This document shows, in pieces, positions 10,801 through 63,500 of a stretch of DNA of 64,000 nucleotides. The DNA comes from Protonemura montana (taxonomy: Eukaryota; Arthropoda; Insecta; Plecoptera; Nemouridae): contig OX387603.1 in NCBI GenBank assembly GCA_947568835.1, forward strand, positions 18,376,651 to 18,440,650, read 5' to 3'. The number at the start of each line of letters is the position of its first letter. Position 1 is the first letter of the stretch. The notes beneath the pieces are model-generated. The model was not told the DNA's origin, made no database searches, and saw only the letters and a program-made list of their open reading frames with translations. The translations under genes were made by a program, and so were the position numbers.

Positions 10801-53756
<42,956 letters not shown>

Positions 53757-57382: not shown

Positions 57383-57505
57383 ATGGGCACCCGAGTTTTT
57401 GTTGGGGGTCTCACGTACCGGGTGCGGGAACGTGATCTCGAGAAGTTCTTCCGCAAATATGGCCGAATAAAGGAAGTGGCAATGAAGAATGGATTTGCTT
57501 TTGTG
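57383..57505 (+). CDS. B52: SR factor coding exon 1 (RRM1 start)
   Basis: 41 codons: [20 protein letters not shown] then [24 protein letters not shown]2 is VFVGGL and RNP1 spans into exon 2. The acceptor (T-rich tract, then TTGCAG at 57379-57381) leaves one untranslated base before the ATG. Confidence 0.96.
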
Positions 57506-60500
57506 GTAAGTTTCATTAGAGGACTGGCTTAAAAATGTACCTATTGCTTTTCTCTTATGTTCCAATTCTTAATTTCCACTTGAAGGTTATTGATTAGCAT
57601 TTATCTTCATTTTTACCTCATGCCTGAGAGTATTATTGCTATGATGATTTTCACAATTGTCTTCTTTCCCTGACAGACTGTTCTGTGGTGAGAGTGATTT
57701 ACTGAGCACAAAAACTACTCATTTCAGTTCTCAGTAGCCTCGGCACAATTCAGTTTTCTTGCGTGTCTTTATGTTGGTATTGTATTGCTTTTTTTAGGAG
57801 TTTGATGATTATCGAGATGCTGATGATGCAGTTTATGAACTAAATGGAAAGGAACTTCTTGGGGAAAGGTAAGCGTTACTACATTTTTTTTACCTATTTT
57901 TCTGGACTGAAGGAATATTTTGGGCCTGAGACTTTTGTATATGCCCAACTGATTGTTTTGCACTTCATTTCATTCAACCTTGACACCGATGGTGTTGTTT
58001 CCCTGACCCAAATTTTGAGACTGATAATCCTGGCTATCATATAGTTATTCAATTTGTTGTTAATATTGTTAGAAGGTAAACCCTAAAATCTATTTTCAGT
58101 GGGTTTTTGACATCAGTACATTTTGTTTTATTTTTAAAATTTAAATCAATATTCACCTGTTGGTGGCTTGCTCTGCTCTCAATTAAATCTCCACCAGCGT
58201 TTGTTTGTACGTGTGGTGTATACATATCCTCTAGGCTTTTGACGGCTGCGTTGAAGGAAGGAAGGAAGGACGAACGTACTGACGGAGGGCGGCACGTAAA
58301 GGTTCGTGTTCTTTTGTTTCTAGGGTAGTAGTGGAACACGCCCGAGGCAATTCCTCCCGTCGCGGTTACGGAGGCCGAGATGACTACAGCCGTCGTCGAA
58401 GCAAGTAAGTAACTACATCGCTGCTGCTTGTTGTTGCAGAGTGTCTGTAGAGAAGGCTCGTGGGACACCGAGAGGAGGTGACCACATGGGCCGCGGGTCG
58501 AGTCGCGGCAGCAGTAGCGTGCCGCCGCGCCAGAGGAGCCGGGCTCGGTAATGTAACGACGTCATAAGATGCGTTTGCCAAGAAGTACCAATTGTCTGGG
58601 CTGCCTCTTGTGAATAGAAAAGTGGCTTGGAGTTTTTTTATTCAATCTAACTGAATCCATACTTCGTGCTTACAAGCTTATGTCAAACGTGTTTCTACAC
58701 ATAAACTTGTGGGTGCTAGTCAGTTTTATCACTAGCAGTCATCTATCTTGGTCTTGTGCCATTTGGCTCCTGCTTAATTAACGAAAGCAATTATTAACTT
58801 GCAGGTCTATAATTGTTCACTCCTAGCACAAATACTCTGTAGTTTTTATATCATCAGTCACGTATTTGGTGAAGGCGCAGTTCCATTAACATTGTGTGGT
58901 ACTTTTTGGTGGCCATTCTTAAACGACGCCGTCGTTGAAAGCGTCGAGCCCTTCAACTCCTCTGCCTGGCGTCAATATCGATGCAAATTGCCTCTTTGCG
59001 TTCTACAGATCCTGTCTTGACCTGACTAACTGCCGAGAGCGAGTGCATGCGTGTGAATGACTTGCTTTCCGTGGTGGACTTCTTTTTCCAATTAATGCTA
59101 CCAGTAGCCAATCCTTACTATTTTTTTAGATCCTTTGCTGCTTGTTTGGTAGATGCCAGCGGTTTTTGCTGCACTTAATGATATCTGTTATTGTCTTCAC
59201 TAATTTTGATATGAACATGATTAATTTTCTTAATCTCTTACAAATGACACTGGGCTAGACTTGGTTACTTGATTTATTGATCCATTTCCTAAAACTACAG
59301 TGATGATATTTGATTACCCATCTTTTGGGTCTGGTTTGTTTCTCGAAGACAACCCTAAACCTGAACAATTGTATCCATTATTACCAAGATTAGAACCTGA
59401 AATGTATGAACAGCTAACCAGATTGAAAATTTAAAGTTAAATTCATTGCCTCATTCTTTTAAACGCATTAAAAACTTTATTTCTACCAATGTCTGGGGTT
59501 GCTTAGTAGTAATGTTAATTTTCTTCGGGTGTTCCAAATGAGTTGTCTGTTTGTCAGTTACATGGATCTTGCAAGGAATTTCTAGTTTTTGCTTTGGTTC
59601 TCTCATTTTGTGCAACTGATATTTTGCTAGTTTTCCTTTTTTTTAGTAATTGCTATCCGCTAAATAAGCCTTAATCATTTTTTCTCAAGTGTGATGACCC
59701 TCTCAAAATTGCAGTGATGATATTTGATTACCCATCTTTCGGGTCTGATTTGTCTCTTGAAGACAACCAAAAATCTGAGCTTTAATTTTGAGAATTGTGT
59801 CAAATGTCCTTGCAGTGGTTTATAACAGTAGAACCAGAATTATACAAAGATTGAGCAAAGTTCAATATTTTTCTGTTTATAACTGTCTTTAGTTGATAGA
59901 TTGCCAGAGTCATATGGTAGTTAGGGTTCTAAAGTCTCCAACAAGTAGTAATGCTTGCGGTTGAACCAATGGATGGGCTACGCTGGGAAACAGGGTGGAA
60001 AAAAAACTCTTATTTCCGATTCCAACCAACACAGTGATGATATTTGATTACCCGTCTTTTGGGTCTGGTTTGTTTCTCGAGACAACCCAAAACCTGAACA
60101 ATTGTATCCATTATTACCAAGATTAGAACCTGAAATGTATGAACAGCTAACCAGATTAAAAATTTAAAGTTAAATTCATTGCCTCATTCTTTTAAACGTA
60201 TTAAAAACTTTATTTCTACCAATGTCTGGGGTTGCTTAGTAGTAATGTTACTTTTCTTCGGGTGTGCCGAATGAGTTTTCTCTTTGTCAGTTACATGGAT
60301 CTTGCAAGGAATTTCTAGTTTTTGCTTTGGTTCTCTCATTTTGTGCAACTGATGTTTTGCTAGTTTTCCTTTTTTTTTTTAGTAATTGCTATCTGCTAAA
60401 TAAGCCTTAATCATTTTTTCTCAAGTGTGATGACCTATTTTCCAAAATTGCAGTGATGATATTTGATTACCCATCTTTCGGGTCTGATTTGTCTCTTGAA

Positions 60501-63500
60501 GACAACCAAAAATCTGAGCTTAATTTTTGAGAATTGTGTCAAATGTCCTTGCAGTGGTTTATAACAGTAGAACCAGAATTATACAAAGATTGAGCAAAGT
60601 TCAATATTTTTCTGTTTATAACTGTCTTTAGTTGATAGATTGCCAGAGTCATATGGTAGTTAGGGTTCTAAAGTCTCCAACAAGTAGTAATGCTTGCGGT
60701 TAAACCAATGGATGGGGTACGCTGGGAAACAGGGTGGAAAAAAAAACTCTTATTTCCGATTCCAACCAATGCCAGTGATTGCTGAAGCAAATATTACTTG
60801 CACAAGCCTGTGGTTTAAACTTGGTGACTTGAACCTTTGCAAGGAATATGCTGACTGCCTGGTAATCTTTCGATTATTGAAGTGTTCCGTGACACTTTTT
60901 GCCAAACTGGTCTCTTAGCTAAGACTACCACAAAGATGATTAAGAGTCGAATTTTTTTTTTAGATATACTTATTCTGACTTACAATCTTGAAATGGTAGT
61001 GGACTTGTAGTCTGACAAATGTGTTCTGTTGACAGTGATATGGATGTTCGAATTCAAGATCGTTACGGGCCTCCGACACGCACTGATTACAGACTTGTCG
61101 TCGAGAACCTTTCAAGCCGTGTCAGCTGGCAGGTAAGCATCGATAGTACAACTAGGATCCAGTTTATGTATTTTAAAAATTGATAGTTGAGATTTTTTCT
61201 TTTACGAATGGCCTGTAGGTGTTTTTTAAACCTCAAAACACTGAAGCATTTTAGCCTATGTGCTAAGAAAAGTTTTATGTGCAAGATGCTACTGTTTAAT
61301 TGATCTGCATTAAACTTCGTTTAGTATCTAGCAGAGTAGCCGTAACCGAGCAAGTAGTGTTTTGCATCAACACCCAGGTGTAAACGTAATTGCAATACCC
61401 CAAACCTGCCTCGGCCAGGATCAAAACGGATAACTAGGTCCGACTACAAGAAGATGGCCAATTGCAACGTGCTCCCTGATGTGGAAGAAGACTAAATTTG
61501 ATCCTGGGAGAGGGAGATCGAGACCCTATGGAACCTGCGGCCAATGCCCGATGATAGGAAGCAAAGAAGGCCTGGACCTCGAGTGCGAAGTATACCCATG
61601 TGAAGCGCTCCGAAGGATGAGCAGAAGAAAAAGTCGGATCGACTGTCCCCCCCCCCTCCAATGGAACTACGACGAAAACCTGCTCCGAAATCTGCTTGGT
61701 CCTCGCCGAGTCCCCCCCTGCTGAAACTTGCTCGGTTGCGAGAATGCTATCTGATTTTTTGTCAGGCTGTAGTTTTAGAGTCTACCCTCCATTATCTATT
61801 CTTTAATTTATATAGCTTATAAGCCTTTTTTTTTTTTACTTTAAAGCACCAGCGCAAATGTTTGATAAAGTTAACGCTGTTTTTTCCGAAGAGCCTTGCC
61901 ATGGACGTACCGAGGCTCCAGTCCTGTCGATGGGGTGTGACCGTTAACTGAGAGAGAGAGAGATCGTTTCCGATGGTTGCCATTCGTTCCGAACTGAGAG
62001 ACAGACCGAACGGACAGAGACGACGCCCACTCGAGAGAACGATGGGCGGAGTGTCACTTCCAATTCTGTTGGTGTGGTCAACCGTTGATGACCGTGTGAC
62101 TGGCTAGGGCAAAGGCTCGCACGTTCGCTCTGAGGTCGTGGCTCCTTGTGATTGGTTCCCCGTCGACCGATCGATACCGTTAACTGTGCCCGCCGCACGG
62201 CTGGGTTCAAGGTAAATGATCTACCGTAAGAACGAAACAAAAAAAGTAAACAATTCGAGCATGTGAGGTGAGCGTCGGCAAAATGTGGAACCTTTCGTTT
62301 GTAGTACCTATTTCTCTTGGTGATGCTTTTGATCGTATGTTTAAAAAGTTTATATTTTTCTACGACTTAATGTTGTCTGAATATGCTCAAACAAAGCTTT
62401 TACAATGCCTTTACCTTTTGCATAACAATTATTTGAAAAGCATATCCAATTTAGCATTTTGTTCCAAACAAAAAATTCTTATTGATCTGATCTCACAACA
62501 TTTCTAGCTCTAGGCAGTTAGGTTTTTTTAAACTATATGATTGATGAAACAAGATGACTTCCAACAAATATTGAATCTGGATAATGAAGAAACTTCTGGT
62601 CAACGCCCTTGTCCCAGGGAGAAGATCAGCTAAATGGCTGTGCAGACTACTGTGATTTCAGACAAGTCAGTTTTCCACCAAAGAGGGTAAACCCATGATG
62701 TAACCTGAAGAAGCAGATTAGATATCCGTCCCACAAATCGAGAATTAAGCAAGAACAGATTGTTTCTACCGATTTGGAAAACTGATTGTCCTAGGACTGA
62801 TACTAATCCCCAAGTCATCGAAGGATCGAAGATTCTACTGGCGCCTCTTATTTGACACCTTCCAAGGTCCCCGAAGATTTCAGAAATGGGAGGTCCGAGG
62901 AGCGATATTGACCCCTACCTGGCATCAAGCTGAGATGGAGGCCATCGTCTTGCAAGATTGAACTGGTCAAACTAGGACATATTCTTCTCATCTTTCCACT
63001 GACCGATCTGGGGACAACGTTTGTAAAAGAAATGGAATGAACTTGGACTCTGCTGCCATCCTGCAAACTACATCCATGCCACTGTGGGTTTCTGTTCTCG
63101 GTGTCCAGGAAGCCTGAAGAATGAAAACCAACTTGTAAATCTCTGTAGGATTGGTGGTACCCAAAGTTACCAGAGCAAGAAAAGTTGTGGTTTCAAATGG
63201 ATCTGTGATTGTAACCCAGCCTGTTTTGAGCATATTCAAAATTTATCATCTCTTCCTAATAAATGTTTCCAAATGGATGAGGAATTCCAAATGCAACTGC
63301 GTAATTAAGTTGAATTTGAACTCGCAAATAGTGAAGTTAAGCGTAATGTTTTGGAATCATTTGTTGAGGGCGAGCATATACCATTTGCTGACTTTTTTCT
63401 AACTGTTTGCGATCTGTTTGGTGTGTAGGACCTTAAGGACTACATGCGGCAGGCAGGCGAGGTGACTTACGCAGATGCTCACAAGCAGCGACGAAATGAA

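Follow-up and report, generated by a model that had tools for sequence, protein, structure and literature searches.

How many working guide RNAs does a gene hold when four box C/D-like units lie together in one of its introns, and which base would they guide? This question is raised by a 64,000-nucleotide stretch of the genome of the plecopteran Protonemura montana (C2:18376651-18440650, i.e. the window; the genome searched comprises 258 Mb in 34 contigs). Within its last 7 kb a gene for an arginine/serine-rich (SR) protein starts on the plus strand and then runs past the window end, and an earlier note on the same DNA had described a four-copy cluster of box C/D small nucleolar RNAs (snoRNAs) in an intron of this gene. 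Four box C/D units, all on the plus strand, are indeed present in intron 58405-61035, but only two of them are intact: they fall into an A type (copies 1 and 3), which carries CTGG for D', an altered C' box, a wobble in the guide and no significant fold, and a B type (copies 2 and 4). From the sequence features described below we conclude with considerable confidence that the B units are intron-encoded guides that would methylate one G of the 28S ribosomal RNA (rRNA), that they are divergent relatives of SNORD2, and that the A units are decayed older paralogues.

Two complete box C/D units among four

Both B units are complete in the sense that they possess the C, D', C' and D boxes as well as a terminal stem, which is visible in the folds of both copies. 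The blocks of GTGATGA and CTGA, noted earlier to lie 50-60 bases apart, were recovered at a spacing of 53-54 nt, and so were the D' (CTGA) and C' (TGAAGA) boxes and the flanking stem ascribed to the second and fourth block. With respect to the two features that define the class, the B units have both the internal C'/D' boxes and the C and D boxes closed by a terminal stem, whereas the A units have changed internal boxes (CTGG; CGAAGA or CGAGA) and retain the C and D boxes without a convincing stem. The position of the target-facing C in the B guide is occupied by a T in the A units. A profile search of the window yielded no copies beyond these four below E 0.1 (the next match being at 0.16). 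Each B unit is preceded by an additional GTGATGA (at 59691 and 60427; 23 and 26 nt before the respective C box) that belongs to no clear unit.

The expectation by chance was derived from 60 simulated windows (first-order Markov, both strands). C...D pairs alone are not beyond chance: seven occur on the plus strand of the window and none on the minus strand, and the simulated windows contain 2.4 on average and at most 10. The full order C-D'-C'-D, on the other hand, is found twice in the window and in none of the 60 simulations. In a folding test with 200 shuffles per unit, copy 2 outperformed all shuffles (z -3.50), and the A copies behaved like shuffles (copy 1: z -0.64, 48/200 as good; copy 3: z -0.32, 68/200). 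Boxes, stem and guide together support the assignment of the B units as putative box C/D snoRNAs, and the A units are probably decaying, older paralogues of B with a worn D'/C' half. The proposed class, guide and target base therefore find support in the B copies, two of the four, and not in the A copies.

The D' guide and its predicted target

The D' guide of the B units, CCATCTTTCGGGT, is 13 nt long, adjoins the D' box and is the exact complement of the conserved 28S segment ACCCGAAAGAUGG. As had been claimed, all 13 bases (13/13) pair with ACCCGAAAGATGG, and guide base 5 is located opposite the G. Any particular 13-mer would turn up by chance in 6 kb of rRNA with a probability of ~9e-5. In the window the guide is present at two places, 59732 and 60471, and is absent from the other strand. 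The pairing in the A units includes one wobble in copy 1, at the target base, and two wobbles in copy 3, one of which is at the target base.

The predicted target of the B guide is probably the G that is methylated as Gm805 in yeast and as Gm1522 in human. Yeast G805, which the earlier note had named, fits the literature: Gm1522, Gm805 and Gm814/815 share one table row (with columns that we read as human, yeast and plants) for a site that is methylated in several lineages (PMC11542601), and human 28S Gm1522 is assigned to the guide SNORD2 (PMC5597630, Table 2). In the consensus lines of SNORD2 and SNORD96, AUCUUUCGGG sits one base ahead of the D' box, and as a consequence base 5 faces the same G in these families; CUUUCGGG before D' is common to the consensus lines of SNORD96, snoR29 and SNORD2. 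Among open-licence papers we found none that pairs SNORD96 with Gm1522 or snR39b with G805.

The segment ACCCGAAAGAUGG is present in the eukaryote-like end of one public contig. Searched for eukaryotic rRNA, the public contigs gave one viral_contigs match with a short 28S-like end and one with an 18S-like end; a second 28S pattern had no matches there, and genome_contigs had none. IMG/VR contigs with such eukaryote-like rRNA ends (L005:3330-3430; the 3' part of L006) are probably chimeric assemblies.

In the P. montana genome the 5.8S family was found at four places when 39 of 7976 candidates were scored, and one of the four exceeds the cut-off. This lone 5.8S rRNA match (112.4 bits) is located on C5 (L014:6671-6825), and in the 9901 bases around it neither a further Rfam match nor any of four other rRNA motifs tried was found. 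Because no other rRNA of the genome itself was found, the target search for the second guide, i.e. the one before the D box, was limited to 5.8S; with the above-cut-off match, counting standard and wobble pairs, it forms at most 4 consecutive pairs in B and 5 in A.

Table 1. Features of the SR-gene locus in window coordinates (window-equivalent positions for features past the window end)
Feature	Position	Strand	Remarks
A+B unit in two tandem copies	59293..60769	+	unit of ~739 nt
A-type unit, copy 1	59300..59364	+	C and D retained; D' CTGG, C' CGAAGA; wobble at target base
B-type core, copy 2	59714..59778	+	C GTGATGA 59714-59720, D' CTGA, C' TGAAGA, D CTGA 59775-59778
D' guide CCATCTTTCGGGT, copy 2	59732..59744	+	
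A-type unit, copy 3	60034..60097	+	C and D retained; D' CTGG, C' CGAGA (one base lost); second guide wobble
B-type core, copy 4	60453..60517	+	65/65 nt identical to copy 2
D' guide CCATCTTTCGGGT, copy 4	60471..60483	+	
SNORD2 copies	64454-64525 and 65705-65776		past window end; 50.1 bits each
SR-protein gene, first exons	57383..61132	+	joined exons, open frame, RRM_1, solved relative
SR-gene exons	57383-57505, 57798-57868, 58324-58404 (3a) or 58440-58547 (3b), 61036-61132	+	
Host intron (from exon 3a), all four units	58405..61035	+	inferred from exon boundaries and open frame

Two duplications within one gene

The four units derive from one A+B unit via a recent tandem duplication. When the two copies are aligned, flank ends included (where a few of the differences fall), there are 716 matches, 19 mismatches and 16 gap columns; on the left, the duplication breaks a few bases upstream of an A-unit C box, and the 5' flank of copy 3 is the duplication junction. 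The split between A and B, by comparison, looks old, with cores that would have been retained by selection or gene conversion, since the cores agree while the flanks have diverged. The cores of copy 1 (A) and copy 2 (B) are identical at 58 of 65 positions (89%); the 60 bases upstream of them align no better than shuffles (66/300 reach the score), the 80-90 bases downstream align weakly (5/300) and the sequence farther downstream again does no better than shuffles (190/300).

More guides of this type follow past the window end, and thereby beyond the view of the earlier note. A search of the genome for the SNORD2 family returned two matches, each over the cut-off of 37 bits (61 of 50731 first-look candidates scored). 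The two SNORD2 copies are identical and are located in the last intron of the SR gene and of the gene's duplicated 3' end. From the end of the first copy it is 73 nt to the 3' splice site, which is close to the ~70 nt upstream of that site given as a favourable snoRNA position in PMC1821038. Both copies have CCGA as D' box and a guide in which the first base is mismatched and is followed by 10 pairs, a wobble and a pair. The score between the B core and the SNORD2 core was reached by 0 of 2000 shuffles, and on such sequence resemblance shared descent of B and SNORD2 is likely, although not proven.

The SR-gene 3' end (the last two exons, the SNORD2 intron and sequence beyond) is itself tandemly duplicated, with 1127 matches and 19 mismatches. 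This duplication extends over L017:1753-4273 (window-equivalent 64102-66622) with a spacing of 1251-1270 nt and an identity of 95-99% by block, and both last exons remain open. One SR gene, in other words, carries six units of one guide type, via two separate duplications.

A DNA search of the genome scored four candidates, all four of which (4/4) are in intron 58405-61035. The pattern TGATGAN{5,30}ATCTTTCGGG had three matches, namely the two B units and a third on C5 that lacks a D' box; with its spacer of 5-30 bases it missed the SNORD2 copies (spacer of 2 bases) and is not a full census; further guides may lie elsewhere in the genome.

Matches to Rfam families

In the covariance-model scan that had been proposed as a check, Rfam yielded no match at gathering score in the whole window, the B units match SNORD96 below the cut-off, and the SNORD2 copies past the window exceed theirs. 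At E values up to 10 (22 matches in the window), SNORD96 (RF00055) is the best match of the B units (E 0.00034 and 0.00069), with 35.3 bits over 60446-60525 for copy 4 and 34.1 bits over 59707-59787 for copy 2 at a cut-off of 43, and the A units match no family. SNORD96 and SNORD2 both belong to clan CL00072.

The host gene

The joined exons of the host gene encode a protein with an RRM (RRM_1 domain match), the nearest solved chain being 'Arginine/serine-rich splicing factor 6 variant' (9.2e-30), and beyond the window the gene goes on with RS-rich exons; the SR-factor intron named earlier as the host is thus borne out. The gene is of the SRSF4/5/6 type, a placing based on the solved-relative match and on the general character of such proteins. 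Exon 3 exists in two in-frame versions, 3a (VVVEHARG...) and 3b (VSVEKARG...), which are likely mutually exclusive because the 35 nt that separate them are too short for splicing both together. The 5' splice site of exon 3b is weak (score 3.8).

Intron 1 of the SR gene contains a C/D-like element (57633-57712) with weak matches to several snoRNA families, the best being SNORD11B (23.9 bits, cut-off 50), with SNORD34 at 20.5 bits (cut-off 38). Its D box is ~92 nt upstream of the 3' splice site, it folds like shuffles (56/200 as good), and its pyrimidine-rich D' guide could alternatively be a splice acceptor. Pieces of an INO80-like helicase (DBINO and SNF2 domains) are present at 48547-52572 on the minus strand, divergent to the SR gene.

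Proposed mechanism and alternative explanations

The B units are most likely ordinary guides for one conserved 2'-O-methylation. We infer that they are expressed and would leave the transcript with the spliced SR-gene intron, after which the RNA would be trimmed to a particle assembled on the C/D boxes and the terminal stem; the D' guide would then pair with ACCCGAAAGAUGG in 28S rRNA and fibrillarin would methylate the G, which lies in ACCCGAAAG.

A number of observations weigh against this. The assembly yielded no 28S rDNA of the genome's own (a 24-base pattern with at most one mismatch had 0 matches). The fold of copy 4 is only a modest gain over shuffles (z -1.84; 9/200 as good). The B units stay below the SNORD96 cut-off, have no SNORD2 (RF01299) match at E up to 10 and also weakly match snoR29, snoU30, SNORD37, sR7 and, for copy 4 alone, snoR69Y, which are unrelated C/D families; when the guide and D' are left out, B has only a weak resemblance to SNORD2 (75/2000 shuffles reach the score). 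The lack of changes in B since the duplication (0/65) is not significant (P 0.15-0.18 against the unit's rate). Finally, the placing of four units in one intron is unfavourable to ordinary processing: 518 nt separate the last D box from the 3' splice site, and no internal 5' splice site scores above 5.5, versus 9.4-11.1 for four inferred gene sites (exon 3b: only 3.8), all splice sites being scored with one simple matrix. According to PMC11028025, an animal intron mostly has a single snoRNA, and a pair in the same intron can yield snoRNA-ended long RNAs; four units in one intron that lacks good 5' splice sites between them depart from this habit. Several internal acceptor-like sites score up to 10.4, versus 3.0-6.5 for the gene's own, and, given that the donor of exon 3b itself reaches only 3.8, small exons may be hidden between the four units.

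It is against this background that one could suppose that the two SNORD2 copies alone make the working guide and that the four intron units are old duplicates without a stable product. The SNORD2 copies exceed the Rfam cut-off and have the closer position to a 3' splice site, while the four units share one long intron and the A types are altered in both D' and C'. Nevertheless, the B cores are complete, identical to each other and equipped with a standard D' box (CTGA, versus CCGA in the SNORD2 copies), and their 13 paired guide bases exceed the interrupted pairing of the SNORD2 guide, all of which makes this explanation unlikely. It is rather unlikely, too, that the A units are not decaying but act via the guide before D or via a retuned D' guide. 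They do keep their C and D boxes, and the A core appears to have been kept for long, as it is still 89% identical to B despite the diverged flanks; however, the guide before D differs by one base between the A copies, the two substitutions and one loss in 65 bases that A has acquired since the duplication do not point to constraint (P 0.24 for at least three changes), and the A units fold like shuffles. That we are dealing with a dispersed repeat, a snoRNA copied by retrotransposition or boxes arranged by chance is hardly credible: C...D pairs alone do fall inside the simulated range, but the candidates scored in the genome-wide DNA search are confined to this one intron and the full box order is absent from the simulations.

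A further, very unlikely idea, for which the model is an analogy, is that the SR gene might regulate itself via its six guide units, in that particles assembled on the intron would give rise to snoRNA-ended long RNAs or to slower splicing and so tune the SR isoforms, i.e. the choice between exons 3a and 3b, which are likely mutually exclusive, and the use of the duplicated last exons. The analogy is to human SNORD2, for which an action in cis on the splicing of EIF4A2 is described in PMC11028025.

With the B units as 28S guides, then, one conserved type of rRNA-methylation guide is housed six times in one splicing-factor gene, and each of the two tandem duplications includes a guide. Provided that both kinds are expressed, the gene would lend itself, as a natural experiment, to studying the excision of several C/D RNAs from one intron, the dosage of one rRNA mark and possible mutual regulation between a guide and its SR host.

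Comparison with known systems

The type of guide RNA is already known; its multi-copy setting in one gene is unusual. SNORD2 (RF01299), also called snR39B, shares with the B units the AUCUUUCGGG guide before D', the target base and the C/D architecture, whereas the spacer between C box and guide is longer in the four units. SNORD96, of the same clan as SNORD2, resembles the B units in CAUCUUUCGGG before D'; it targets 5.8S, and in this respect the B units differ, as their guide before D pairs with at most 4 bases of the genome's 5.8S-like sequence. The plant family snoR29 (RF01603) has the segment CUUUCGGGUCUGA in common with the B units, which nevertheless score only 25.4 and 23.0 bits at a cut-off of 50.

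The known systems differ in their hosts as well. SNORD2 is hosted by EIF4A2 (PMC11028025), whereas here the host is an SR gene with several copies. No open-licence paper with snoRNAs hosted in such an arrangement by an SR gene was found, judged from titles and the starts of abstracts, which is weak evidence of absence. Drosophila Me28S-G1083 was considered as the equivalent site and rejected, as its counterparts are yeast snR60 and mammalian U80 (PMC1821038). The Drosophila DmSnR60 cluster in mfl/Nop60B is described in the same source as a case in which, likewise, several (four) isoforms of one C/D guide reside in one protein-coding gene; it differs from the SR-gene units in that it targets G1083 and A1092 and places its guides one per intron, ~70 nt before the 3' splice site.

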